Assembly: GCA_020161845.1 (NCBI GenBank)
Contig: JAIUNK010000010.1
Location: 1-64,000 of the forward strand
DNA length: 64,000 bases
Reading direction: 5' to 3'
From: Actinomycetota bacterium
GTDB lineage: Bacteria; Actinomycetota; Actinomycetes; Actinomycetales; Dermatophilaceae
Shown: positions 42,440 through 57,370 of the stretch, one piece after another
Numbering within the stretch: the first letter of the stretch is position 1
How the letters are laid out: each line of letters opens with the position of its first letter
Program-made: the position numbers and the translations under genes
The notes under the pieces: generated by a model
What the model was told of the DNA's origin: nothing
The model's input: only the letters and a program-made list of their open reading frames with translations
Database searches by the model: none

Positions 42440-43081
42440 TCAGGCCTCGCTCTTCTCGGCCGCCTCGGCGGCGGGAGCCTCGTCGGCCGGAGCCGGCTCA
42501 GCCGGAGTCTCCACCGCAGCAGCCTCGGCGCCGGGCGCGGCGACCTCGACCGTCGCGGTGCCCTCGGCGTCGTCGGCAGTGGCCTGCTCAACGACGTCGG
42601 CGGCGGCCGGCTGGGCGTCGGCCTCGGGCGCGCTGGCCTTCGGCTCCTCAGCCTTGGGCTCCTCGGCCTTGGGCTCCTCGGCCTTGGCGGCCTTCTTGCG
42701 GGTCGCCGGGCCCTGCTTGGCGTAGTCGTCGTCGGCCTTGCCCGCCGCGGCCATGGCCGCCTCGTAGAGATCCTTCTTGGACGGCTTGGTCGGCTGCGGC
42801 TTCAAGGTGCCCTCGGCACCCGGCTCGCCCTTGAACTTCTGCCAGTCGCCGGTCACCTTCAGCAGGGCTTGGACCTGCTCGGTGGGCTGAGCGCCGACGC
42901 CGAGCCAGTACTGCGCGCGCTCACTGTTGATGTCGATGACGCTGGGTTCGGCGGTGGGGTGGTACTTGCCGATCTCCTCGATGGCCCGGCCGTCCCGCTT
43001 GGTGCGGGAGTCCATGACGACGACGCGGTAGAACGGTGCGCGGATCTTGCCCATCCGCTTGAGGCGAATCTTGACGGCCAC
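42440..43081 (-). CDS. rpsP: 30S ribosomal protein S16 with long C-terminal extension
   Basis: Residues 1-85 are canonical S16 ([40 protein letters not shown]). About 130 further residues form a Lys/Ala/Glu-rich tail with a KAEEP repeat (three times) and then an acidic Ala-rich end. Total is 213 against about 85-160 in most bacteria. GTG at 43081 was chosen because it gives the family start MAVKIRL; a GTG four codons upstream overlaps the ribosome-binding site. It heads the rpsP-khpA-rimM-trmD operon. Confidence 0.96.
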
Positions 43082-43268
43082 GGGTGTGGTCACTCCTTGT
43101 ACGGTTCGTGAGGCACGGCGAGACCGGCAAAGACGTCAGACGACGTGGGCCGGGGTGCCGCAACTCGGGGTGTAGGCGCCCGAGATCCCGGCTGCGACGC
43201 ACATCGCTGCAGTTCACTGCAGGAGGCGGGCCACGGTCCGGGCGGGTACAGCCACCCATTGTGCCAGA
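43082..43268 (-). promoter_or_regulatory. rpsP promoter and leader
   Basis: The -10-like motif at 43254-43268 (TCTGGCACAATGGGT on the minus strand) is identical to that of rplS. The leader contains a 7-bp perfect inverted repeat, CTGCAGT/ACTGCAG, at 43207-43222. Confidence 0.55.
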
Positions 43269-43286
43269 CCCGCCGGCGCCGCCCGA

Positions 43287-43306
43287 CCACGCCGTACGTC
43301 GTGGGC
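43287..43306. repeat. Copy of dispersed CGTACG near-palindrome
   Basis: CCACGCCGTACGTCGTGGGC, upstream of the rpsP promoter and adjoining the hexamer array. Arms CCACG and CGTGG pair around CCGTACGT. Confidence 0.55.
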
Positions 43307-43313
43307 CGCTCAG

Positions 43314-43398
43314 CCCCACGCCCACGCCCCACGCCCACGCCCACGCCCACGCCCACCCACGCCCACGCCCACGCCCACGCCCACGCCCACGCCCACGC
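43314..43398. repeat. CCCACG hexamer array (G-quadruplex-prone on the minus strand)
   Basis: About 14 units of CCCACG with occasional CCCCACG or CCCA slips. The complementary strand reads GGGCGTGGGCGTGGG repeatedly, that is, G-triplets separated by three bases, the classic pattern for a G-quadruplex. It lies about 45 bases upstream of the rpsP promoter motif. After a GACACCTGACCGGACCGG segment the 72-bp elements begin. Confidence 0.9.
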
Positions 43399-43434
43399 GA
43401 CACCTGACCGGACCGGACCGCGGTCGCCACACGA

Positions 43435-43506
43435 GAGGCGCCTCTCCTTAAGCCGAGAGAACTCTCATCCAGACGAGAGCTCTCCCGCACCAACAGGAGG
43501 CGCCTC
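43435..43506. repeat. 72-bp palindrome-bounded element, copy A
   Basis: Begins and ends with the 10-bp palindrome GAGGCGCCTC. Inside is a hairpin with CTCTC and GAGAG arms around the loop ATCCAGAC, and outer arms CCGAGAG/CTCTCCCG. Copies C, D and F have exactly the same 72-base length. Confidence 0.9.
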
Positions 43507-43565
43507 GCCCCTGCGACGTCCCGCCCCTGCGACCGCCTGCTCCACGCTCACGCCGTACCGAACGA

Positions 43566-43637
43566 GAGGCGCCTCTCCTGCGGCCGGAGTCGTCACACGG
43601 TGAGGCGCCTCCCCTGCGGCCGGAGTCGTCACACGGT
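43566..43637. repeat. 36-bp tandem repeat, two units
   Basis: Two 36-base units, each starting with GAGGCGCCTC and continuing CTGCGGCCGGAGTCGTCACA, run directly into 72-bp copy C. The two units differ by one base. 36 is exactly half of 72, so the terminal palindrome keeps register across the cluster. Confidence 0.9.
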
Positions 43638-43709
43638 GAGGCGCCTCTCCTTAAACCGGGAGGACTCTCATCCAGACAAGAGCTCTCCCGAACCAACAGG
43701 AGGTGCCTC
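43638..43709. repeat. 72-bp palindrome-bounded element, copy C
   Basis: Near-identical to copy D; the right terminal palindrome has one change (GAGGTGCCTC). Contains GGGAG...CTCT, loop ATCCAGAC, AGAG...CTCCC arms. Confidence 0.9.
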
Positions 43710-43794
43710 GCCCCGGCGACGCCCCACGCCCACGCCAACGCCCTCGCGACACCTGACCGGACCGGACCGGACCGGACCGCGATCGCCGCAGGGT

Positions 43795-43866
43795 GAGGCG
43801 CCTCTCCTTAAACCGGGAGGACTCTCATCCAGACAAGAGCTCTCCCGAACCAACAGGAGGCGCCTC
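43795..43866. repeat. 72-bp palindrome-bounded element, copy D
   Basis: Identical to copy C except for one base. Preceded, like copy A, by a GACACCTGACCGGACCGG segment and followed by a CACGCTCACGCCGTACCG segment that also follows copy A. The repeated unit is therefore larger than 72 bases and has been shuffled. Confidence 0.9.
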
Positions 43867-43935
43867 ACCTCTGCGACGTCCGGCCCCGGCGACGTCCCGG
43901 CCCACGCTCACGCCGTACCGAACGAGAGGCGCCTC

Positions 43936-43971
43936 CGGTCGAGGTGTCGGGGTAGCCCGACACCTCGACCG
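43936..43971. terminator. Perfect 16-bp hairpin upstream of the histidine kinase gene
   Basis: CGGTCGAGGTGTCGGG and its exact complement flank the loop GTAG. It directly follows a fifth GAGGCGCCTC (43926-43935) and ends 51 bases before the kinase ATG. It could insulate the two-component operon from the repeat cluster or act in its leader; there is no T-tract. Confidence 0.7.
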
Positions 43972-44022
43972 GCCAGGCTGCGGGATAGTGTGACCCACCT
44001 GCCGATTCCTAGCGTTGACGCC

Positions 44023-45360
44023 ATGACCAGCACCATCGTCCCGGCCCCGCCGGAGGTAGCCATGTCCCGCGACCGCCTGCGTGCCCTGTTGCGACGCACC
44101 CTGCGCGAATCGGGATACCTCCTGGCCAGCTGGCCGATCCTGATGGCCGCGTTCGTCGTCGTGATCACCCTGTTCTCGATGGGGATCGGCATGGTGATCA
44201 TCTGGATCGGCGTGCCCCTCCTGATCGCCACCGTCGGCGCGGCGCGAGCCTTCGCCGTGGCCGAGCGCGGCCTCCAGCGGCACCTGCTCGGTCAGGACCC
44301 TGCCCCGGGGAGTTACCGGCGCCGCGGCCCGGACGAATCGTTCGTCCGGCACGCCCTGGGCCTGTTCACCCATCCGCAGTCCTGGATCGACGTCGGGTTC
44401 AGCCTCTTCGCCTGGTGCGTGGCCGTCATCACCTGGTCGCTGACCATCGCCTGGTGGTCGGCGGCCGTGGGCGGGATCACCGCGCCGATCTGGGCGCTGT
44501 TCACCGACCAGCGCATCCGCTTCTGGGGGATCCCGACCGACTTTGGCCCGGGCGACTGGCTCCTGGAGATCCTCGCCCATCTGTGCATCGGACTCGTGGC
44601 CCTGGTCACCCTGCCCTGGGTGGTGCACGCCCTGGCGACGCTGCAGTCTTCGCTGTTCGGCGCCGTATTGGGCGCCCGGGGACTGCAGGAGCAGGTCGAG
44701 CACCTGCAGACCAGCCGCACCGCGGCCCGGGATGCCGAGGCCGCCTCGCTGCGCAAGCTGGAGCGCGACCTGCACGACGGCCCCCAGCAGCGCCTCGTCC
44801 GCCTCCAGATGGACCTCGGCCGCGCCCTGCACCAGGTCGACGAGGACCCCGCCAAGGCCCGCGCCGCGATGGAGTCCTCGCTGGACCAGGCCCACCAAAC
44901 CCTGGAGGAGCTGCGCAACCTCTCCCGCGGGATCGCCCCGCCGATCCTCATCGACCGCGGTCTCGTCGCCGCCCTGGAGGAGCTGACCACGCGCAGCGCC
45001 ATCCCGGTCACGTTCGCGACGAACCTGCCGCGCGACCGGCGCTCCGAGGAGATCCCGGCCCGCGTCCAGGACGGCGCCTTCTACGTCGTCTCCGAGGCCT
45101 TGACCAACGCGGCCAAGCACTCCGGCGCGGCCCACGCCGAGGTCGAGGTGCACTTCGGCGAGGGCATTCTGCGGGTCACCGTGCGCGACGACGGCCGCGG
45201 CGGCGCGGCGTACGGCGGGAGCGCCTCCGCCCTCGCCCACCCGGGGGGAACCGGGCTGCTCGGCCTGCGCGACCGCCTCGCCGGTCTCGACGGGAGCCTG
45301 GACGTGTACTCCCCTGTCGGCGGCCCCACGGTGCTCACCGCGATCCTGCCCTGCGAGTGA
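44023..45360 (+). CDS. NarL-type sensor histidine kinase
   Basis: 445 residues. The N-terminal sensor is a membrane domain with four hydrophobic stretches (WPILMAAFVVVITLFSMGIG; MVIIWIGVPLLIATVG; FAWCVAVITWSLTIAWW; LCIGLVALVTLP), like the PF13796-type sensor found in actinobacterial kinases. The HisKA_3 phosphoacceptor is in LERDLHDGPQQRLVRLQ; the ATPase N-box is VVSEALTNAAKHSGA, with VRDDGRGG and GTGLLGLRDRL. The ligand is unknown. The response regulator follows 19 bases later. Confidence 0.95.
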   Translation: MTSTIVPAPPEVAMSRDRLRALLRRTLRESGYLLASWPILMAAFVVVITLFSMGIGMVIIWIGVPLLIATVGAARAFAVAERGLQRHLLGQDPAPGSYRRRGPDESFVRHALGLFTHPQSWIDVGFSLFAWCVAVITWSLTIAWWSAAVGGITAPIWALFTDQRIRFWGIPTDFGPGDWLLEILAHLCIGLVALVTLPWVVHALATLQSSLFGAVLGARGLQEQVEHLQTSRTAARDAEAASLRKLERDLHDGPQQRLVRLQMDLGRALHQVDEDPAKARAAMESSLDQAHQTLEELRNLSRGIAPPILIDRGLVAALEELTTRSAIPVTFATNLPRDRRSEEIPARVQDGAFYVVSEALTNAAKHSGAAHAEVEVHFGEGILRVTVRDDGRGGAAYGGSASALAHPGGTGLLGLRDRLAGLDGSLDVYSPVGGPTVLTAILPCE

Positions 45361-45379
45361 ATCGGGCAGGATCGGGGAC

Positions 45380-46021
45380 ATGAGCCTGCGCATCGTCCTC
45401 GCCGACGACTCGGTGCTGCTGCGGGAGGGTCTGGAACTGATCCTGACCGACGCGGGGCACCGGGTGGTCGGCCGGGCCGCGGACGGCCCGAGCGCCATCG
45501 CGACCGTCCTCGCCGAACGCCCCGACCTGGCCATCCTGGACGTACGGATGCCGCCCAGCCATCGGGACGAGGGCATGCGCGCGGCCGCCGCCATTCGCGC
45601 GCAGTGGGCGGCGGCGCCGCTGCTGATCCTGAGCCAGTACGTCGAACGAAGCTACGCCCGCGACCTCGTGGGGCCGGCGTTCGGTTATCTGCTCAAGGAC
45701 CGCGTCAGTGACATCCCCGCGTTCCTGACCGCGGTGCAGACGGTCGCCACCGGGGGCACGGTGATCGACCCCCAGGTGGTCGCCCAGTTCCTGGCGAGCC
45801 CGGCCGCCTCGCCGGTGGACGCGCTGACCCCCCGGGAGCGGGAGGTGCTGGGGCTGATGGCGCAGGGTCTCGGCAACGCCGCCATCGCCGCCCGCCTGGT
45901 CCTTACCGAGGGCGCCATCGAGAAGCACACCCAGCGCATCTTCGCCAAGCTTGCCCTGGATCCCGGCTCCGACCAGCACCGCCGCGTGGTCGCCGTGCTG
46001 GCCTACCTGGACCAGGGCTAG
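45380..46021 (+). CDS. NarL/LuxR-type response regulator
   Basis: 213 residues: a receiver domain with acidic pair ADDS, phosphoacceptor Asp in LAILDVRMPP, and Lys in YLLKDRV; then a LuxR-type helix-turn-helix (LTPREREVLGLMAQGLGNAAIAARL, TEGAIEKHTQRIFAKL). It is the cognate partner of the upstream kinase. A second, truncated regulator gene whose 3' end closely resembles this one lies at 49941-50090. Confidence 0.96.
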   Translation: MSLRIVLADDSVLLREGLELILTDAGHRVVGRAADGPSAIATVLAERPDLAILDVRMPPSHRDEGMRAAAAIRAQWAAAPLLILSQYVERSYARDLVGPAFGYLLKDRVSDIPAFLTAVQTVATGGTVIDPQVVAQFLASPAASPVDALTPREREVLGLMAQGLGNAAIAARLVLTEGAIEKHTQRIFAKLALDPGSDQHRRVVAVLAYLDQG

Positions 46022-46030
46022 GGCTGGGGA

Positions 46031-46102
46031 GAGGCGCCTCCTGCGGGGCCGAGACGACTCTCATTCACACGAGAGTTCTCCCGGGCGGACGAGAGGCGCC
46101 TC
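46031..46102. repeat. 72-bp palindrome-bounded element, copy F
   Basis: More diverged copy, 9 bases after the response-regulator stop. Same length and both GAGGCGCCTC ends; inner hairpin CTCTC-ATTCACAC-GAGAG. The loop differs from A/C/D (ATCCAGAC) while the stem bases are kept, which suggests structure matters. Elements therefore lie on both sides of the two-component system. Confidence 0.88.
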
Positions 46103-46217
46103 CCCTTGCAGCACAGCAGCGCACCTCCCAGGGCACCTCGCACCGCCCCCATGCCAGCACAATGCCCACCGCACACGGCGTACCGGCTGGTTGCACCCAA
46201 CAATCTGCGCCCGCGGC

Positions 46218-47240
46218 GGCGGCCGGGTCGAGGAGCTCTATACCCCGGCCGCCCTGGACATGACCAGCGCCCACCCGTTCAAGGGCAACCTGGATCTCGG
46301 CCGGCTGCGCGACCTGATCGCTCAGGTGGGGGTCGAGCACATCCCGTTCGTGCGGCTCGAGACCGGCACCAACCTGATTGGCGGACAGCCGCATTCCCTG
46401 GCCAACCTGCGCGAGCTGCGCGCCGTCTGCGATGAGCATGGCCTGCTCCTGGTCATGGATGCCTCCCTGCTCAGCGACAACCTGTGGTTCATCGCCGAGC
46501 GCGAGGAGGCCGAGCAGGGGCGCACGATCGCCCAGATCGCCCGCGACATCGCCGACCTGTGCGACATCGTCTACTTCTCGGCGCGCAAGATCACCTGCGC
46601 CCGCGGCGGCGGCATCCTCATTCGCGACGAAGAGGTCTACAAGCGGATGCGCGGGCTGGTGCCGCTGTATGAGGGCTTCCTGACGTACGGCGGCATGAGC
46701 GTGCGCGAAATGGAGGCCATGACCGTCGGCCTCGACGAGCTGCTGGACATCGACAACATCTGCCAGGGGCCGCAGTTCATCGCCCACATGGTCGCGGAGC
46801 TGGCCGACCGCGGCGTACCGGTCATCACCCCGCCCGGCGGCCTCGGCTGCCACGTCAACGCCCGCGAGTTCCTGCCGCACCTGGACCCGCGGCAATACCC
46901 CGCCGGCGCGTTGGCGGCCGCCATCTATCTGACCTCCGGGGTGCGCGGAATGGAGCGCGGCACCTTGTCCGAGCAGCGCGACGAAAAGGGCGTCGAGCCG
47001 ATCGCGGAGATGGAGCTGGTGCGGCTCGCGATGCCGCGCCGCGTCTTCACGTTGTCGCAGGTCAACTACGCCGTCGACCGGATCTCCTGGCTGTATTCCA
47101 AGCGGCACCTGATCGGCGGACTGCGATGGATTGAGGAGCCGGAGGTGCTGCGCTTCTTCTACGGGCGCCTCGAGCCGATCGGGGACTGGCAGGACGCGCT
47201 GGTGGCCGAGTTCCGCGCCGACTTCGGCGACTCGCTCTAG
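46218..47240 (+). pseudogene. 5'-truncated tryptophanase-like gene
   Basis: The reading frame aligns without interruption to residues 143-482 of the intact gene at 54200, from GGRVEELYT to the identical end FGDSL. The PLP Lys region YFSARKITCARGGG is present, but the first 142 residues are missing, including the LTDSG and THQGR regions needed for the fold and cofactor. No plausible start or ribosome-binding site exists at the junction. Many third-position differences from the intact copy show it is an old paralogue rather than a recent copy. The 19 bases at the junction (46205-46223) repeat those encoding the lysine-region CARGGG at 46595-46613. Confidence 0.88.
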
Positions 47241-47246
47241 GTCGCG

Positions 47247-47513
47247 TCAGGCCCGCGCCCGCAGCGCCAGCTCGACGATCTGAGCGTCCGTGACCAGGTC
47301 GCGGGCCTGGCTCGCCGGCACCCTCACGGTGCGGTGGTGCGCCAGTCCGGCCGAAGCCAAGACGGCCGGTACGTCGAGCGCCGCGGGCGCCTGAAGCACC
47401 AGCCCGCCGCAGCCAGCCATCAGCCGGCGCCACGACGTACCGCTTGCTGCTGCAAGCAGCTGGGCCGCGGCGGCGTCGATGTAGGGCACGCCCAGCTCCC
47501 GGGCCAGGCGCTC
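47247..47513 (-). pseudogene. Truncated copy of the GNAT-associated C-terminal domain
   Basis: About 89 residues (GERLARELGVPYIDAAAAQLL... to VELALRARA) are roughly 80% identical to the C-terminal domain of the 338-residue protein encoded at 50069-51085. The GNAT part and the start of the domain are missing; beyond 47513 the similarity stops abruptly at a run of C's and the frame continues into unrelated sequence. It could still be expressed as part of a chimeric frame up to 47699, but this is unlikely. Confidence 0.75.
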
Positions 47514-47726
47514 CCCCCCAGCTGCCGCGTCACCACAGTTACACCCTCCGGCTCGGCGTGCGTTAGCACGATCTGCGCCCGCCGCACCATCCGCCGACGA
47601 CATGGGGCGCCGCACCCACCCAGACAACACCGCCCGCTCATGATCGCTCGACACCAGCGACTTCGCTGCGAGACCCGACGTACGCCCAAGTCCACCCACT
47701 GGGAAGCGAGCTAACGCCTCACGACA

Positions 47727-48317
47727 CTAGGCATTCCTTCGCACTCGAAGGGAGCCCAAGTCATTATACTCATCGCCGACATACCACTGGTCCTGAAATA
47801 CCCAGTTGCTTGCCCGGCCCGTAAAGTACGTCCCAGAATACTTTTGTGATTCATTGCATTCCCCCCATACTTTATACGAGGAGACGCCGTCATATCGGTA
47901 TCGATCCCACCACGAAATGCTGGCGATATTGCCGAATCCGTATCCCGCGTGATCACAGGTTTCCGGCCCATTGATCGTGTCCGAACCGCCGCCCCAGCCC
48001 GCATATTGGTAGACGGTCACCAGTGGCACCCCGGCCGAACGAGCGCCTACTAACCGCTCTTGTGCGCGCGCCGACAGGCGTGCGTCACGTTCCTCGATGG
48101 TCCCGCACCAGCGATCGGCAACTACTAGAATGCGAGATCCGGGCCGCTGGGGGACGGTATCGGTAATGCAATGCTGGACACCTCCGACCCTTGCCGTGTC
48201 CCCCGGCTCAGGGCCCGTCCCGGATGAGCTAGCGAGGGAGGATGCGTGTGCGGTAGCAGAACCGCAGCAAATGGTACTTAAGGCGACAACAGAAATAGCA
48301 AGGTGGTTCAGTTTCAT
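47727..48317 (-). CDS. Secreted cysteine-containing protein, possibly beta/gamma-crystallin-like
   Basis: 196 residues starting MKLNHLAISVVALSTICCG, a signal peptide that may be cleaved after ATAHA. The mature part has four cysteines (QHCITD, RWCGT, ETCDH, GECNE). Its C-terminal half is aromatic/Gly-rich (ISWWDRYRYDGVSSYKVWGEC, YSGTYFTGRASNW, VGDEYNDLGSLRV), recalling the beta/gamma-crystallin-like fold of secreted peptidase inhibitors and similar Streptomyces proteins. That resemblance is weak. GAGGAGGAG precedes the ATG. Codon use is clearly less GC-biased than the neighbours. Confidence 0.75.
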   Translation of the reverse strand: MKLNHLAISVVALSTICCGSATAHASSLASSSGTGPEPGDTARVGGVQHCITDTVPQRPGSRILVVADRWCGTIEERDARLSARAQERLVGARSAGVPLVTVYQYAGWGGGSDTINGPETCDHAGYGFGNIASISWWDRYRYDGVSSYKVWGECNESQKYSGTYFTGRASNWVFQDQWYVGDEYNDLGSLRVRRNA

Positions 48318-48587
48318 GATGCTCCTCCTCAAGACGCAAGTGGCCACACGTGGGACGTTCCCAGGCCTACTCTTCTGGGTGTTGACTATCTAACTCAGCG
48401 ACATCTCTGTTCGGAAGCGGTGCGCCTCGATTGGAGCTCGAAGCTCAGTCGGTCTTCAAGGTGCGTACCGCTGATCGCTGGACCGGCGTGACACAGATCA
48501 CTCATCGGTGACTCCTGCCCCCGACACATTTGGCGCTAAAGTCGAACCGCATTCACCAATATGTCTGTTCAAGGCTCGGGGAGAGCT

Positions 48588-48920
48588 ATGGTTACCAACG
48601 ACGAACTGTGGCTGCTTGATCGTGCTCTCGCTCCAATCCTGGTGTTAGCTGCCCTAACCAGTGGGCCCAGCTACCCCTATGAGGTCTGCTGCCGACTCCG
48701 GAAACTTGGATTCGAGCGAGGATATAGTCGGCCAGACCTGAGCCCTCTGTTCGGACGTCTCGCGGAACGCGGATACTTGGATAACAGAGGGGTTTGCGTT
48801 GTCAATAATCGGGCGCGCCACTACTATGCTTTGACAGAAAGCGGATTACTCGCTCAGCGCGCCGCTCGTGAGCGGTCGATTGTCGGAATCAACATTCTTC
48901 AGCAACTGGCCCAAGAGTGA
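48588..48920 (+). CDS. PadR-like transcriptional regulator
   Basis: 110 residues with the PadR winged-helix pattern: LAPILVLAALTSGPSYPYEVCCRLRKLG, then YSRPDLSPLFGRLAERGYL, and NNRARHYYALTESG. Start ATG at 48588 follows GGGGAG; an ATG at 48561 is in frame. It is divergent from the 196-residue secreted protein, with a 270-base shared upstream region that probably holds its operator, and convergent with a second secreted protein. Likely the local regulator of the island. Confidence 0.8.
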   Translation: MVTNDELWLLDRALAPILVLAALTSGPSYPYEVCCRLRKLGFERGYSRPDLSPLFGRLAERGYLDNRGVCVVNNRARHYYALTESGLLAQRAARERSIVGINILQQLAQE

Positions 48921-48950
48921 CCTCGTGAAAACGAAACAATTGGATAGACC

Positions 48951-49310
48951 TCAGACAGGTGCGATCGGTGAGGGGTTATTGAGCACCACCCCACGAGGGG
49001 CGCACCAAGCATACGTTCCGTTATTGTCGAGGATTCCCTCAGATGTGGCACGCCACGACGCAGTCCGTGACTGGGTGTTGTACGACATGGACATGATTGT
49101 GTTGTTATACTGCTGCATCACGATGTTGCCGTTGATGGAAATCGATACCAAGTCGTCTCCTTTCGCGGTGACAAGAACCACCTCGCCGGAGAGACAGCCT
49201 TGGTTTCCCCATTTGTGCACTGTCGCGTGGGCGGGTGCGGTCGAGAGCCCCAGGATGCTTGTGGTGGCGCACAACAGGGCGACAGCACCGGCTTGCCGAC
49301 GAACGATCAT
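48951..49310 (-). CDS. Small secreted protein of unknown function
   Basis: 119 residues with a clear signal peptide (RRQAGAVALLCATTSILGL, predicted cut after APAHA). It leaves a mature domain of about 92 residues rich in Asn, Ser and Thr, with two cysteines (QGCLSG, AWCAPR) that could form one disulfide. No family recognised. GAAAGG precedes the ATG. A/T-rich codons match the neighbouring secreted gene, suggesting common origin. Confidence 0.72.
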   Translation of the reverse strand: MIVRRQAGAVALLCATTSILGLSTAPAHATVHKWGNQGCLSGEVVLVTAKGDDLVSISINGNIVMQQYNNTIMSMSYNTQSRTASWRATSEGILDNNGTYAWCAPRGVVLNNPSPIAPV

Positions 49311-49372
49311 GGCGGACCTTTCTTTGCAGACTTGTGGACGTCCCGACGAAACAGTGATTCGGAGGTAATGGT

Positions 49373-49585
49373 ATGGGGCACAGTGAACTGGATTGGCAGG
49401 CCGAAGAGCAGTTCGTGCTGATCTGCCGCGAGCGAGCGAAGGCGTTCCTCACGTATGACGCATGTCCTACCCGCGCCACGGCGGCCGCCCATGACTCGCT
49501 ATACGAGCCCTGGATGGAGGCTGGTATCCGCTATCTTGCCGCCAGGTACGAACAAGAGCTTGCTCGACTGAGAGAACAGTTGTGA
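49373..49585 (+). CDS. 70-residue protein of unknown function
   Basis: A short helical, acidic protein (HSELDWQAEEQFVLICRERAK, then AGIRYLAARYEQELARLREQL). The start has a strong GGAGGTAA four bases upstream, which argues for a real gene. It diverges from the 119-residue secreted protein. No family recognised. Confidence 0.55.
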   Translation: MGHSELDWQAEEQFVLICRERAKAFLTYDACPTRATAAAHDSLYEPWMEAGIRYLAARYEQELARLREQL

Positions 49586-49639
49586 AATGGGGCTTGCTCG
49601 TTCCATGCCATAAGTAACTCATTCTGGCGGCGCCATCGC

Positions 49640-49925
49640 AATGCCCCGATTCCAGCGATACCAACTCCGGCAGGTATGCATCTACCCGATGGGTCGACCT
49701 GGCGACGTCCGCGCCAGGCCGGGGGTGCCCTTCGGCGTTGTAGGCCGGGCTGCCACACCAGCTCTCGGGCACGAGGTTTGTACAGCTGCGGGGTGTTCAC
49801 CGGCAGGGTCCACCCGATCGTGTACGCGACGCCACGCCGGTGCAAGAAGTGCAACACGTGACGGGTGTCGCCCGCGCCATCGGTCCTGATCATGACCTTC
49901 TTGCCGGGCCGGGAGAGGTCAATCC
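49640..49925 (-). mobile_element. IS1380-family transposase remnant
   Basis: On the minus strand, VMIRTDGAGDTRHVLHFLHR and GVAYTIGWTLPVNTPQL match the internal VRTDGAG...FLDWL...YSVGFTLP segment of actinobacterial IS1380-type transposases. The alignment continues after a frameshift as VPESWCGSPAYNAEG (compare IPEQVWTPAYDADG). Only about 95 codons survive, in two frames, with no terminal inverted repeats seen. It abuts the truncated response-regulator copy. Confidence 0.7.
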
Positions 49926-49940
49926 CCGGCGAGGGCGGCC

Positions 49941-50090
49941 AACGCCGCTATCGCTCGTCGCCTGGTCCTTACCGAGGGCGCGATCGAGAAGCACACGCAG
50001 CGGATCTTCGCCAAGCTCAGCCTTGACCCGGGCTCCGACCAGCACCGCCGCGTGGTCGCGGTGCTTGCCTACCTGGACCAGGCCCGGTGA
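49941..50090 (+). pseudogene. 3' fragment of a second NarL-type response regulator
   Basis: The 150 bases encode NAAIARRLVLTEGAIEKHTQ through VVAVLAYLDQAR and stop. They match the last 48 residues of the regulator at 45380-46021 at about 90% of residues, with most base differences synonymous. The copy was therefore once a functional paralogue. It begins abruptly beside the IS1380 remnant and lacks the receiver and half the helix-turn-helix. Confidence 0.88.
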
Positions 50091-51085
50091 CCGACTGAAC
50101 GGGCCTGTAGCGCCAGCTCGACGATTTGGACGTCCGTGACCAGGTCGCGGGCCTGGCTCGCCGGAACCCTCAGGGTGCGGTGGTGCGTCAGTCCGACGAG
50201 AGCCAGAAAACCAGGTACGTCGAGCGCGGCGTCCGCCTGAAGCACCAACCCGCCGCCGCCGACTATGAGCCGCCGCCACGACGTACCGCTTGCTGCTGCA
50301 AGCAGCTCGGCCGCAGCGGCGTCCACGTACGGCACGCCCAGCTCCCGGGCCAGGCGCTCACCCACCTCAGCGTTCGGACCCGACTCAGGAAAGCCGGACT
50401 CCAGGACGACAACGACGCCGTCTCGTTCGCCCACACCGTACGGCTCGGCCGGCCACTCGCGCGCCGTCACCCCGTAGGTCACGTGGTCGCGCCAGGCGTG
50501 GGCGCCGCTGGAGTCGGGCAGCCACAGGTAGTCGGGCCACGCGCCGCGGCGCTGGAACCCGAGCGAGCGCAGCAGCCCGGCCGACCGCACGTTGCCCGGC
50601 TGCACCGAGGCTTCGACGCGGTGCAGTCCCATCCCCCGCGGCTCCGGCGCCAGGGCCAGGTCCACCACCAGCCGCAGGCCCTCGGCGAACAGGCCACGCC
50701 CGGCGTACGGGTCGTAGGCGTCATAACCCATCGACGCCGACATCGCCCGGCCCCGCACCACATTGGTCACGTTGACCCGGCCCACGATGTCGTGCTCCCC
50801 CCAGGGCTGGCGGGCGTGCACGATGAAGGTCCGGTGCCCCGACGACTGGAACCGCAGGTGCCGCTCCAGGTCGCCGGCGTCGACCGGATTCCACGCGGCG
50901 AGCCGATCCCGGGAGGCCAGGACCGCCAGCCGATAGGGCACCAGGTCGGCCTTGGTGACTGGGGCGACCCGCACCCGCTCCCCCACGGCCGTCAACGGAT
51001 CGGCGTCCGGCGTGCCCTGCAGATGCCGCCCCGACGGCGGCGGCGCCACCCCTTCGGGACGCCGCTGCCCAGCTGCTCCGCTCAC
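50069..51085 (-). CDS. GNAT acetyltransferase fused to a C-terminal domain of unknown function
   Basis: 338 residues. Residues about 35-225 are a RimJ/RimL-type GNAT (VRVAPVTKADLVPYRLAVL, DIVGRVNVTNVVRG, YDPYAGRGLFAEGLRLVVDLAL, GLHRVEASVQPGNVRSAGLLRSLGF). Residues about 235-326 are a separate domain (GVVVVLESGFPESGP, GERLARELGVPYVDAAAAELL, VPASQARDLVTDVQIVELAL) that I do not recognise and that also occurs alone, truncated, at 47247. The GTG start overlaps the amidohydrolase stop. The last nine residues (VGHRAWSR and neighbours) are read from the antisense of the response-regulator fragment. Confidence 0.82.
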   Translation of the reverse strand: MSGAAGQRRPEGVAPPPSGRHLQGTPDADPLTAVGERVRVAPVTKADLVPYRLAVLASRDRLAAWNPVDAGDLERHLRFQSSGHRTFIVHARQPWGEHDIVGRVNVTNVVRGRAMSASMGYDAYDPYAGRGLFAEGLRLVVDLALAPEPRGMGLHRVEASVQPGNVRSAGLLRSLGFQRRGAWPDYLWLPDSSGAHAWRDHVTYGVTAREWPAEPYGVGERDGVVVVLESGFPESGPNAEVGERLARELGVPYVDAAAAELLAAASGTSWRRLIVGGGGLVLQADAALDVPGFLALVGLTHHRTLRVPASQARDLVTDVQIVELALQARSVGHRAWSR

Positions 51086-52176
51086 CGCACGGACCTGCCC
51101 CGCAACACGATTCGGTGCGGGCGGATCAGCATCCGCAGGTCGTCGCGCGGGTCGTCGAGATAGACCAGCAGGTCTGCCTCGGCGCCCTCTTCCAGCCCCG
51201 GGTAGCCCAGCCATTGCCGGGCGTTCCAGGTGGCGGCCGCCAGCGCGCCTGCCGCGCCGAGGGCTGTCTTGCCCAGCTCGATGACCTCCAGCGCGATCAG
51301 CCCGTGCGGCAGCTGGCCGCCCGCGTCCGTCCCGGCGTAGATCGGCACGCCGGCCTCGGCGGCGGCGCTGATCGTGTCGTACCGCCGGCGGTGCAGGTCG
51401 AGCATGTGCGCGGCGTAGCTGGGGAACTTCGCCCGCCCCGCCGCCGCAAAGTTCGTGAAGTTGTCGATGTTGATCAGGGTCGGCACGATCGCGATGCCCT
51501 GCCGGGCGAAGGCCTCCACGGTGTCCGGCACCAGCCCGCTGGCGTGCTCGATGCAGTCGGTGCCGGCGGCGGCGAAGTCGGCCAGGGACTGCTCCCCGAA
51601 GCAGTGCGCCGTGACGCGCGCGCCCTCCTCGTGCGCCGCCGCCACCGCGGCGGTCAGGGCGTCCACCGGCCAACACGGGGCCAGATCGCCGCGGTCCCGG
51701 TCGATCCAGTCCCCGACCAGCTTCACCCAGCCATCGCCGGCCCGGGCCTCCTGCCGCACGTAGTCGACGAGCTGGTCCGGCTCGACCTCGTGCGCCACGC
51801 CGGGGATGTAGCGCTTGGTCCGCGCGATGTGCCGGCCGGCCCGGATCAGCCGGGGCAGGTCGTCGCGGTCCTGGGCCCAGCGGTTGTCGACCGGTGACCC
51901 CGCGTCCCGAATGAGCAGGGCGCCGGCGTCCCGGTTGGCATAGCCCTGGGCCACCGCGCGATCCTCGTCGACCGGGCCGCCGGGGCCCAGTCCGAGGTGC
52001 GCGTGCGCATCGACCATGCCCGGGATGACGTGCCCCCGCACGGTCTCCACCTCGGCGGCGGAGCCGGGCGCCGGCCCGGAGAAACTGATCCGCCCGTCGA
52101 TCACCCACACCTCGTCCCGGGTCTCCTGCGGACCCACGTGAACCTGACCGACGACATGGAGAACGGGCGCGCTCAT
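51082..52176 (-). CDS. Amidohydrolase family protein
   Basis: 364-residue metal-dependent hydrolase of the imidazolonepropionase/DAN deaminase-like group. Metal ligands are visible: HxH in GMVDAHAHLGLG, Lys in DGWVKLVGD, His in GARVTAHCFGE, His in CIEHASGLV, and Asp in YAGTDAGGQL. An amidohydrolase also lies near ffh in mycobacteria (Rv2915c), so this gene belongs to the conserved backbone. Substrate unknown. It precedes the GNAT fusion with a 4-base overlap. Confidence 0.92.
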   Translation of the reverse strand: MSAPVLHVVGQVHVGPQETRDEVWVIDGRISFSGPAPGSAAEVETVRGHVIPGMVDAHAHLGLGPGGPVDEDRAVAQGYANRDAGALLIRDAGSPVDNRWAQDRDDLPRLIRAGRHIARTKRYIPGVAHEVEPDQLVDYVRQEARAGDGWVKLVGDWIDRDRGDLAPCWPVDALTAAVAAAHEEGARVTAHCFGEQSLADFAAAGTDCIEHASGLVPDTVEAFARQGIAIVPTLINIDNFTNFAAAGRAKFPSYAAHMLDLHRRRYDTISAAAEAGVPIYAGTDAGGQLPHGLIALEVIELGKTALGAAGALAAATWNARQWLGYPGLEEGAEADLLVYLDDPRDDLRMLIRPHRIVLRGRSVR

Positions 52177-52263
52177 GGCTGCGAACCTACCGCCCGCCCG
52201 GGGGCAGGTGAGCCCCGACGGCCCCGCCGGTAACGTCCCGCATCGAGCCGGGAATGAGGGGGC

Positions 52264-52850
52264 ATGACGACGGACGATGACCGCGACCGGGTCTGCTTCG
52301 AGGCGCTGGTCGAGCAGACCCAGCAGGCGCTGCGCCGCTACGCCGTACGCCGCCTTCCCCCCGACGATGTCGACGACCTGGTCGCCGAGGTCTATGCCAC
52401 CGCCTGGCGGCGGCGCGACGCGATCCCCGATCCGCCGCTGCCCTGGCTCTACCGCACCGCCGCGCACCACCTGGCCCACGCCCGCCGGGCCGAGGCCCGC
52501 AGGACCCGGCTCGCGGCACGCCTGACCGGCTCCGGCGAGCACGGCTGGGTGGCGCCGGTCGAGATCGCCGAGGCCGATCCCGACCTCGCCGCCGTCCTCG
52601 CCGCGCTGCCCGCCGCCGACGCCGAGATCCTGCGGCTGGCCGCCTGGGAGGAGCTGTCCCCCACCGAGATCGCCTATGTCCAGGGCGGTACGGCGGGTGC
52701 CGCTCGGGTCCGGCTGCATCGGGCCCGCCGGCGCGCCGCCGCCCTACTGGCCGCCGCCGAATCAGCCACCACCACCACCAGCACCGCCACCAGCCATCGC
52801 CCACCCACGGCCCGCGCCACCGCGGCCCCCAGCCCCGCCCAGGAGTTGTC

Positions 52851-52857
<7 letters not shown>
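52264..52857 (+). CDS. ECF-type RNA polymerase sigma factor
   Basis: 197 residues with sigma-2 (FEALVEQTQQALRRYAVRRL, DDVDDLVAEVYATAWRRRD) and sigma-4 (LAALPAADAEILRLAAWEELSPTEIAYVQGG, then GAARVRLHRARRR). A Thr/Ser/Ala-rich tail of about 35 residues follows. The overlapping downstream gene encodes a membrane protein of the type that accompanies such sigma factors. Divergent from the amidohydrolase. Confidence 0.92.
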
Positions 52858-53969
<1,112 letters not shown>

Positions 53970-54016
53970 CCAGGCGTGGAATGGGCTGGTAGCCCCGCAG
54001 CGCAGACTGCCCGCCG

Positions 54017-54035
54017 ACTACGCCGTACGACGGTC
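54017..54035. repeat. Copy of dispersed CGTACG near-palindrome
   Basis: ACTACGCCGTACGACGGTC in the 230-base gap upstream of the tryptophanase-like gene; otherwise that gap shows nothing recognisable. Confidence 0.45.
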
Positions 54036-54199
54036 ACGGACCGGACAATGTGACAACCGCGACCTGCGGCGATGGCGACCGTTGACCAGGGTCGGGACGT
54101 GAGTCCCGGGACGGGGCCACCCCTCGCGCCCTAATTTGACGCACGGCGTCGGCCGCGGAGCCGGCGCCGGCGGCGCGCGCGAGGAGGCGGCAACAGGCC

Positions 54200-55648
54200 A
54201 TGGCCCAGGTGAGGTTCAGCTCGGGAGAACGCATTCCGCTGGAGATGCACAAGGTTCGGATCGTGCAGAAGCTGTCCCTGCCGCCGATCGAGGACCGGGC
54301 CCGGCACATCGCCGAGGCCGGCAACAACACCTTCCTGCTGCGCAACGCCGACGTGTTCATGGACATGCTCACCGACTCCGGGGTCAACGCGATGAGCGAC
54401 CGGCAGCAGGCCGCCATGCTCACCGCGGACGACAGTTACGCCGGATCGGCGACCTACACGCGGCTCTTCGACAAGCTGCTCGACGTCTTCGGGATGCCCT
54501 ACTACCTGCCCACCCACCAGGGCCGGGCCGCCGAGCACCTGCTGGCCCGCACCCTGGTCACGGAGGGTTCCGTGGTGCCGATGAACTATCACTTCACCAC
54601 CACGAAGGCGCACATCACGCTGTGCGGCGGCCGGGTCGAGGAGCTCTACACCGACGAGGGGCTGCAGGTCACCAGCGAGCACCCCTTCAAGGGGAACATG
54701 GACATCGGCAAGCTGCGCGCCCTGATCGACGAGGTCGGCGCGGCGAACATCCCGTTCGTGCGCCTGGAGACCGGCACCAACCTGATCGGCGGACAGCCGC
54801 ACAGCCTGGCCAACCTGCGCGAGATTCGCGCGGTCTGCGACGAGCACGGCCTGCTGCTCGTCATGGACGGCAGCCTGCTCTCGGACAACCTGTGGTTCAT
54901 CAAGGAGCGCGAGGACAGCGAGAAGGACAAGTCCATCGCGCAGATCGCCCGCGACATCGCGGACCTGTGCGACGTGTTCTACTTCTCGGCCCGCAAGATC
55001 ACCTGCGCCCGCGGCGGCGGCATCCTGGTGCGCGACGAGGAACTGTACAAGCAGATGCGCGGCCTGGTGCCCCTCTATGAGGGCTTCCTGACGTACGGCG
55101 GGATGAGCGTGCGGGAGATGGAGGCCATGACGATCGGCCTCGACGAACTGCTGGACGAGGACAACATCTGCCAGGGTCCGCAGTTCATCGAGCACATGGT
55201 CACCGAGTTGGCCGACCGCGGCGTCCCGGTGATCACCCCCGCCGGGGGGCTCGGCTGCCACGTCGACGCCCGGCGCTTCCTGGATCACGTGCCGCAGGAG
55301 CAGTACCCGGCCGGCGCCCTGGCCGCCGCGATCTACTTGTGCTCCGGCGTGCGGGGCATGGAGCGCGGCACCATGTCGGAGCAACGCGAGCAGGACGGCA
55401 CCGAGCCCCTGGCCGAGATGGAGCTGGTCCGCCTCGCCATGCCGCGCCGGGTGTTCACGCTCAGCCAGGTCAGCTATGCCGTGGACCGGATCGCCTGGCT
55501 CTACACCAAGCGCCACCTGATCGGCGGCCTGCGCTGGGTCGAGGAGCCCGAGGTCCTGCGGTTCTTCTACGGGCGCCTGGAGCCCCTCGACGACTGGCAG
55601 GAGCGGTTGGTCGCCGAGTTCCGCAAGGACTTCGGCGACTCGCTCTGA
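54200..55648 (+). CDS. tnaA: Tryptophanase-like PLP beta-eliminating lyase
   Basis: 482-residue fold-type I PLP enzyme of the tryptophanase/tyrosine phenol-lyase family, which splits Trp (or Tyr) to indole (phenol), pyruvate and ammonia. Family landmarks: FLLRNADVFMDMLTDSG, PTHQGRAAEHL, VMDGSLLSDNLWF (Asp223 for the pyridine N) and YFSARKITCARGGG (PLP Lys266), with the C-terminal PEVLRFFYGRLEPL. Substrate preference cannot be settled. A 5'-truncated paralogue lies at 46218. GAGGAGG is 13 bases from the ATG. A perfect hairpin follows the stop. Confidence 0.88.
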   Translation: MAQVRFSSGERIPLEMHKVRIVQKLSLPPIEDRARHIAEAGNNTFLLRNADVFMDMLTDSGVNAMSDRQQAAMLTADDSYAGSATYTRLFDKLLDVFGMPYYLPTHQGRAAEHLLARTLVTEGSVVPMNYHFTTTKAHITLCGGRVEELYTDEGLQVTSEHPFKGNMDIGKLRALIDEVGAANIPFVRLETGTNLIGGQPHSLANLREIRAVCDEHGLLLVMDGSLLSDNLWFIKEREDSEKDKSIAQIARDIADLCDVFYFSARKITCARGGGILVRDEELYKQMRGLVPLYEGFLTYGGMSVREMEAMTIGLDELLDEDNICQGPQFIEHMVTELADRGVPVITPAGGLGCHVDARRFLDHVPQEQYPAGALAAAIYLCSGVRGMERGTMSEQREQDGTEPLAEMELVRLAMPRRVFTLSQVSYAVDRIAWLYTKRHLIGGLRWVEEPEVLRFFYGRLEPLDDWQERLVAEFRKDFGDSL

Positions 55649-55681
55649 CCCTGCTGACCCGGCTGACCCCGCCGACCCCGG

Positions 55682-55718
55682 CCTGGTCTCGGCCCGAACC
55701 GCTCAGGCCGAGACCAGG
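55682..55718. terminator. Hairpin between convergent tnaA and phaC
   Basis: CCTGGTCTCGGCC and its exact 13-base complement with an 11-base loop. The phaC stop codon lies inside the loop, so the hairpin serves tnaA and overlaps the end of phaC. Confidence 0.8.
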
Positions 55719-57370
55719 TCCCGCACGTAGCCGCCAGGCGCCTCGGCCAGGACCTTGTGGCCCGCGTCGCCCAGCCCGGTGGGGGCGTCCTGGAGTGCAC
55801 CGCTGCGCTGCGCGGCCCACTCGACCCACTCCGTCCACCAGGAGCCCATCTTCTTCGTCGAGGCCGCCCGCCACGTCTCGGCGTCGACCTCGCCGGCGTC
55901 GCCGCCGACGAAGTAGCTCGCCTTCGGATTCGACGGCGGGTTCACCAGGCTGGCGATGTGCCCCGCGTTGCTGAGCACATAGGTGATGTCGTCGCTGCCC
56001 ACCAGCTGCGTCGTACGGTAGGTGCCCTTCCACGGCGTCAGGTGGTCGGTGATCGCGCCCTGCACGAACGTCGGAACCGTGATCGTCGCGGCGTCGAAGG
56101 GGCTGCCCGCGAAGGACCGCGCGCAGGACTGGGCCAGCGGGTTGCGGTGGAAGATGTCCAGGAACTGCTTGTGCAGGTGCGCCGGCAGCCGGGTGCCGTC
56201 CGCATTCCACGCCAGGATGTCGAACGCCGGCGGGTCCTGGCCCATCAGGTAGTTGTTCACCCAGTAGTTCCACACCAGATCGTTCGGACGCAGCCAGGTG
56301 AACGCGCCGGCCATCTGCCGCGCCTCGAAGACGCCCTGCCGCGCCGACGCTGCGCCGGCCAGCGCCATCGTCGGCCCCTGCCCGAACGCCGCCATCGGAA
56401 TCTGCCCCGCCCAATCCAGCAGGGTGACCGCGAACGAGGCGGTGTTGACCTGGTCCTCGCCGAGGTCGACGAGCCGGTTCAGGGTGATGGCCTCCAGAAT
56501 GCCGCCGGCGCAGAACCCGATGAGGTTGACCTTGTCGACCCCGGTGATGGCGCGGGCCTCATCGATCGCGGCGATCACCCGCGCGACGTATTCGTCGATG
56601 CCCCAGTCGGCATGCTGCTTCTCGGGGTTGCGCCAGCTGATCAGGAACATCTGGTGGCCCTGGCTCACGGCGTATTCCACGAAGCTGCGGCCCGGCGCCA
56701 TGTCGAGGAAGTAGTAGCGACCGATCGGCGGGGGCACGACGATGGTGGGAATCTCGTGCACCTGGTCCGTGGTGGGGGTGTATTGCAGCAGTTCCGCCAC
56801 CGGGTCGCGGCTGACCACAGCCCCTGGCGTCACCGCGAGGTCGACGCCGACCGTGAAGGCGTCCCGCCGGACCATCGACGGCATGCCCCCGTTGTGCCGC
56901 AGGTCGTCGACGAAGTTCTTGCCTCCGGCCACGAGGGATTTGCCGCCGGTTTCGAAGGCCCGCTTGAGCGCGGCCGGGTTCCCGAGCAGGTAGTTGGTGG
57001 GGGCGAGCGCGCTGGTCACGATCCCGGACAGGAAGCGGACGGCCTGCGCGTGCCGGAACTCGCGCTCCTCGAGGCGGTCGTTGAGCTTGTCGACGGCGCG
57101 GGTGCCGGCGAGATAGCCCTGGGCCAAGGCGCGGTACGCCGGGTTGGTCTGCCACGTCGGGTCGGCGAACCGCTTGTCGCCCCGGTCGGGCTCGACCTCG
57201 GAGTCCCCCGTGCCGATCTTGAGCAGTTCGACCCACAGATCCACCACGTCACGACCCGTGGCGGGGGCCTGACCGGCGAGGAAGGACGCATCGTCCATCC
57301 CGGAGCGAAGGCCGCTCGTGACACCGGCGACGACGTCGCTCACCTTCTTCAACGGGTTCAGTTCGGGCAT
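55703..57370 (-). CDS. phaC: Poly(3-hydroxyalkanoate) synthase, class I-like
   Basis: 555-residue polyester synthase that polymerises hydroxyacyl-CoA into PHA granules. The lipase-like box holds the catalytic Cys in [12 protein letters not shown]. Also visible are [22 protein letters not shown], the Asp region [13 protein letters not shown] and the His in [14 protein letters not shown]. Length and the N-terminal domain fit class I. No phasin or reductase gene is adjacent. A propionyl-CoA synthetase near 15 kb could feed it, but that link is speculative. Confidence 0.95.

Follow-up and report, generated by a model that had tools for sequence, protein, structure and literature searches.

A family of hairpin elements of fixed length, four of them in the window (the whole analysed stretch of 64,000 nucleotides), occurs in eight copies at five sites of one 4.39-Mb genome. 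Each copy is 72 bp long and is bounded by a self-complementary 10-bp word that hardly varies while the enclosed sequence drifts. From sequence comparison and predicted folding, these elements probably form a lineage-specific family of terminator-like hairpins at gene 3' ends, and this reading disfavours a role as a regulator specific to the kinase gene beside which three of them lie.

Element structure and genomic copies

All four window elements consist of the word GAGGCGCCTC (R), a 52-bp core and a second R. A sequence-only reading of this DNA had given their common length and positions, which held without change: E1 at 43435–43506, E2 at 43638–43709, E3 at 43795–43866 and E4 at 46031–46102, all assigned to the minus strand as the better-folding one. 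The same reading had every element begin and end with the self-complementary word; this is so for every one of the eight arms except that on the right of E2, which is GAGGTGCCTC, one change from R. The self-complementarity of R makes every element both an inverted and a direct repeat. In the 5' to 3' direction of the minus strand, the plan is R (10 nt), 10 nt, inner arm (12 nt), loop (8 nt), inner arm (12 nt), 10 nt and R (10 nt). E4 has the loop ATTCACAC in place of ATCCAGAC and keeps the inner CTCTC/GAGAG stem, as had been noticed from the letters.

Three further exact R words lie in the window, at 43566, 43602 and 43926. A tandem repeat at 43566–43651 (36 bp, 2.4 copies, no strand assigned) opens each copy with an R word, the final one being part of E2, and the lone word at 43926–43935 follows E3 at the distance at which an R follows E1, a local duplication. 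E1–E3 are themselves local duplications with their flanking sequence included (family D1), which leaves about two independent sites among the window copies.

DNA search, word-pair search and a covariance model (R1) agreed on four more copies in the genome: two tandem copies that share one R (C28:266628–266699 and C28:266690–266761) and single copies at C55:51644–51715 and C58:887–958. The suspicion that the repeat extends beyond the kinase–regulator locus was thus borne out. R pairs with a spacer of 38–68 nt number eleven in the genome, seven of them at exactly 52 nt, and the reversed word used as control gave none. R itself occurs 30 times, against 15 for the reversed word, with 22 occurrences at element places and 8 outside. 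Extra R words beside the elements have other spacings (23 and 26 bp at C55, ~18 bp at C58, 36 bp in the window). A short hairpin of ordinary kind, with AGGCGCCT as its arms, stands between convergent genes elsewhere (L111 1501–1528, G000:C19:39347–39374); R-like arms occur also in this plain terminator of the same genome.

Gene context

At four of the five sites the element is a stable GC-rich hairpin at most 200 nt downstream of the stop codon of the adjacent gene. E4 begins 9 nt past the stop (46021) of the response-regulator gene, as reported earlier, and the other distances are 96 nt from mmsA (C28), 157 nt from an aldehyde dehydrogenase gene (C55) and 192 nt from leuA (C58); these three names, and rpsP below, are putative assignments from translated sequence. 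R words lie between stop codon and element at C55 and C58. The better-folding strand is sense to the upstream gene at C28, C55 and C58 and antisense to it at E4. E1–E3 are placed otherwise, between the divergent rpsP and kinase genes. No T-run follows the stem, the adjoining 12 nt on either side holding 0–3 T, and a terminator consensus scan of 43050–47400 gave one weak site, inside E3, against 0.9 expected, which is chance level. The Rfam 15 covariance models had no match in the window at gathering score.

Predicted folding and sequence conservation

An end-to-end fold is predicted for all seven distinct copies, with the two R arms paired and the core closing into an inner stem round a loop of 4–8 nt, on either strand. 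In ten folds (seven copies on the plus strand, three also on the minus strand) z-scores against shuffles ranged from −3.8 to −9.6, those of E1–E4 lying between −3.8 and −6.1. In all seven copies the minus strand of the window orientation gives the better fold (for E1, MFE −49.3 against −36.0 on the plus strand); when cores are folded alone it does so in five of seven, C28 and C58 slightly favouring plus. Symmetric non-Watson–Crick cells on the minus strand of the five independent sites comprise 24 G–U and 6 A–C, a tally that is no independent statistic, since it counts related copies and these same sequences served to choose the pairs.

Pairwise divergence among the five independent copies, a set that excludes E2 with its one R change, is 0.387 (39%) for the core and 0 for either R arm, a contrast suggesting that R is either under a sequence-specific constraint or homogenised by some process. 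The expectation that copies are intergenic and retain the hairpin while the core drifts agrees with these data. The 33-pair structure has 86.6% of its cells paired, against 44–58% when it is slid along the alignment. Covariation within the 72-bp family did not exceed that of shuffles (67 of 500 had as many paired cells and 113 of 500 as high a covariation score), and the compensatory changes foreseen by the sequence-only reading did not stand out from chance in the family itself.

Comparison with congeners

Neither the word-pair search nor R1 found a family copy in three congeners (G001–G003), and the pattern R–N38–68–R occurs in this genome only among the four of the genus; the idea that relatives carry many copies, or that the genus has a similar family, did not hold there. 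In all three congeners rpsP is directly followed by another divergent gene, without the kinase–regulator segment, as determined by searches for kinase and regulator in the DNA and, as protein, in 20-kb stretches around rpsP. The congener neighbourhood differs at rpsP and at leuA, and the aldehyde dehydrogenase fragment had no match in the congeners. The sole comparable interval is that at mmsA. In G001, which has the same two neighbours, the mmsA 3' end carries an unrelated 17-pair hairpin; the hairpin of G002 is similar to that of G001, and that of G003 is different. The elements thus sit where relatives keep other hairpins. The mmsA neighbours are 0.4 kb apart in G001, 4.0 kb in G002 and 2.6 kb in G003, and the interval aligns too poorly across congeners to show an insertion edge.

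Distribution in wider databases

R1 matched three of 149 genomes of the family at E ≤ 0.01 (this genome, G015 and G060) and three of 396 genomes of the order at E ≤ 0.001 (this genome, G060 and G424), both surveys being samples searched with strict filters that lose weak matches. Outside the congeners, and G424 apart, the look-alikes in these sets appear weak by sequence. R1 also scores hairpins picked for their R arms (up to 42.8 bits), so that its weak matches in G015, G060 and G424 reflect in part a generic signal. G060 has two related hairpins, both between convergent genes; R2, a model built from the G424 copies described below, had no match on three G060 loci, which speaks against G060 belonging to the same class. 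Also in G060 is a hairpin of ~80 nt in all, long and nearly perfect, whose arms are CCTGCAGG (L201 8858); neither R1 nor R2 matches it.

A scan for R–N44–60–R in genomes of 84,980 species, from which entries for this genome or for very close ones may be missing, gave 36 DNA stretches; the spacer was 52 in one of the 37 matches listed, and its core was unrelated. The same pattern was absent from IMG/VR viral contigs, and blastn with the 72-bp element found nothing in plasmids and phages; relatives among these were rejected on that basis.

A search with no word preset looked for self-complementary words of 8 bp that recur at a constant distance, and covered ~1.76 Mb. It recovered 7 pairs of AGGCGCCT at distance 62 in element-bearing stretches of this genome and 5 pairs of GAGGCCTC at distance 20 in 400 kb of G424, two sets chosen because they hold elements. 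Nothing was found in 400 kb of G060, and one Markov-shuffled copy per set contained no combination of word and distance twice. In 800 kb of G002 the only word pair found three or more times belonged to a long run of identical sequence resembling repeated coding DNA.

A parallel family in another family of the order

In G424, a genome from a different family in the order, following up a single R1 match revealed seven copies of GAGGCCTC-N12-GAGGCCTC. The spacer is always 12 although 4–34 was allowed, and a control word gave 1. In each copy the word pair stands at the middle of a 70-nt hairpin, GGAGGA – GGGAGGCCTCCC – 8 nt – GGGAGGCCTCCC – TCCTCC, with the geometry of the 72-bp elements; some copies have one change at the arm ends. 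This family is the only source of clear covariation: 12 pairs are changed on both sides, a count reached by 3 of 500 shuffles, and 82.1% of cells are paired, a value reached by 6 of 500, both figures being above every slid version. With a refined GC-based gene call all seven copies are intergenic, 16–168 nt from a stop codon; a first, crude GC-based call had put copies Q3–Q5 within long open frames and Q6 in a gap between divergent ones. Extra GGAGG/CCTCC boxes lie directly past one element (C2, L154 3389–3446), like the R arrays beside the 72-bp elements.

R2 matches seven of the eight copies of the 72-bp family with 24–43 bits over model positions 1–70, scores each higher on the minus strand and misses one tandem C28 copy; R1 in turn matches the G424 copies. 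At E ≤ 1 in 162 kb of this genome, all 16 R2 matches were elements or the C58 array, and the best score in a 379-kb control was 22.7. Eleven of 12 control sources, several with long unrelated hairpins, had no R2 match at E ≤ 5, and the twelfth, L037 of G015, scored 31.5. On sequence comparison the two families may owe their likeness either to descent or to convergence.

Comparison with known systems

Among open-licence papers, titles and abstract openings retrieved with the word, or on such palindromic repeats or terminators, offered nothing resembling the element, and the papers containing the R word concern, by the same parts, other subjects. REP and REPIN (RAYT) sequences are like the elements in being intergenic palindromic repeats with paired arms and local arrays, often downstream of genes. 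They differ from the elements, which are accompanied by no Y1_Tnp, carry no GTAG or CGTC tag and occupy only five sites: PF01797 (Y1, IS200/IS605-type) had no match in this genome and was found in five of 14 control genomes, and flanks read by eye had no common GTAG or CGTC tetranucleotide at the hairpin foot. The proposed REP-type family with its transposase is not supported, and a REP/RAYT origin was rejected for lack of a Y1 transposase. Membership in REP fails on both features tested, as membership among classical terminators fails on the T-run. The available text of a REP survey names no Actinobacteria (PMC3733652). U-less (I-shaped) intrinsic terminators of GC-rich bacteria, at which transcripts end, resemble the elements in having a GC-rich hairpin and no T-run, according to the available part of their description (PMC8914203). 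Ordinary terminators vary from gene to gene, whereas the 72-bp elements are a fixed-length repeat family with an invariant self-complementary arm.

As far as the available parts of these papers go, the nearest functional parallel in the literature may be paired uptake sequences that serve as terminators, although a DNA uptake sequence (DUS) is not known to be itself self-complementary. Paired DUS or USS are described as Rho-independent terminators in Neisseria and Pasteurellaceae, and as in the 72-bp elements a short conserved word occurs twice, close together, the pair forming a hairpin at gene ends (PMC2397512, PMC2267715, PMC1852404). DUS serves DNA uptake and its word is reported in hundreds to thousands of copies (PMC2346458), whereas R has 30 copies, 22 of them at element places, and a structured 52-nt core between its arms. 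The high genome-wide over-representation of a paired uptake sequence has no counterpart in R (30 vs 15). Stem-loop repeat families from a survey of 40 genomes are likewise repeated, structured and mostly intergenic; the novel ones have 9–164 members, and the available part of that article mentions no self-complementary arms at fixed spacing (PMC2267715).

Possible functions and origins

A 72-nt transcript of either strand would fold end to end, and since most sites lie just past a stop codon the hairpin would either terminate the transcript, with no U-tract, or shield its 3' end. Transcript ending without a U-tract has been proposed for GC-rich bacteria. Slippage between R words would give rise to tandem elements and R arrays, and R would be kept identical by a reader of the word or by slippage and conversion between R words, a process to which the tandem copies and the arrays point. 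A 3'-end hairpin explains the sites, the stability and the replacement of hairpins at mmsA; a terminator alone leaves the invariant R without explanation. The terminator-like reading is favoured by the eight 72-bp copies with predicted hairpins, the position past stop codons at four of five sites and the mmsA replacement, by G–U over A–C on the minus strand and the better minus folds in all seven copies, and by the parallel family in G424 and the G060 hairpins between convergent genes. Against it stand three of the eight copies (E1–E3), since a terminator is unexpected between divergent genes, and the antisense orientation of the better-folding strand at E4. The missing T-run, the consensus scan at chance level, the slight plus preference of the C28 and C58 cores and the covariation not above shuffles also count against it, and intergenic sequence will often lie outside divergent gaps by chance.

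The elements might instead be non-autonomous mobile elements of REPIN or MITE type, with a transposase or recombinase that acts on R and copies R–core–R units, which would survive best after genes. Such an origin, which we consider unlikely, would fit the presence of several copies in one genome and none in three congeners, the exact ends and length, the C28 tandem copies with their common R, the R arrays, and a kinase–regulator segment (E3 to E4) that is missing at the same place in congeners; the genome contains no Y1_Tnp, however, in a transposase search that covered the Y1 family, and the flanks show by eye no obvious target-site duplication. Five sites only, with cores 39% apart, argue against a recent burst, and the R–R arms are inverted repeats trivially where the terminal repeats of a MITE are concerned. 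Invariance of R at five independent sites with a drifting core, single and arrayed R words beside elements, and box centres ~20–21 bp apart (counted from the alignment) could also reflect a double-stranded DNA site, at which a dimeric protein would bind the self-complementary R, together with the near-palindromic inner boxes, and the hairpin potential would be a by-product. The spacing of R arrays varies (~18, 23, 26 and 36 bp), pairing runs through variable spacers and the G424 family has compensatory changes, all of which make such a site rather improbable. That the elements are RNA regulators of the neighbouring two-component operon, an option of the sequence-only reading, is very improbable: four of the eight copies do adjoin that operon, but the three upstream of it are local duplications of one another, the window lacks an Rfam match, and the other four copies, at three other places, flank unrelated genes.

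Beyond the terminator-like reading of this one family, we tentatively suggest, as a doubtful extension, an actinobacterial class of 3'-end hairpins in which self-complementary words stand at locked positions (~10-10-12-8-12-10-10 nt). Each lineage would have a word of its own (GAGGCGCCTC for the outer arm here, GGGAGGCCTCCC for the inner arm in G424), which a reader or a homogenising process would keep identical across sites as the remaining stem drifts, and the two families would have either diverged from a common ancestor or converged on the plan. A repeated 3'-end hairpin bears on the question of how high-GC bacteria end transcripts without a U-tract. A word that stays constant while the stem drifts, with a different word behaving likewise in another family of the order, makes it testable whether pairing alone matters or the word is read.

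Further features around the elements

The genes at ~43100–57300 of the window are absent between rpsP and its divergent neighbour in the three congeners, and on sequence comparison this stretch is a lineage-specific segment around the elements. The open frame at 46230–47240, one of five window ORFs covered by a Pfam search, has a match to a beta-eliminating lyase (tryptophanase-like) profile that begins only at position 106 of 288, and therefore looks start-truncated. Directly after the R word at 43926, and ~50 nt upstream of the kinase start, lies a perfect 16-bp hairpin with the loop GTAG (43936–43971; MFE of 43936–43975, −36.3 kcal/mol), possibly a terminator, attenuator or operator. A tandem array of 14 copies of the hexamer CCCACG occupies 43315–43398 and has a 95% match in the congener G002 (C1:3556414–3556491).
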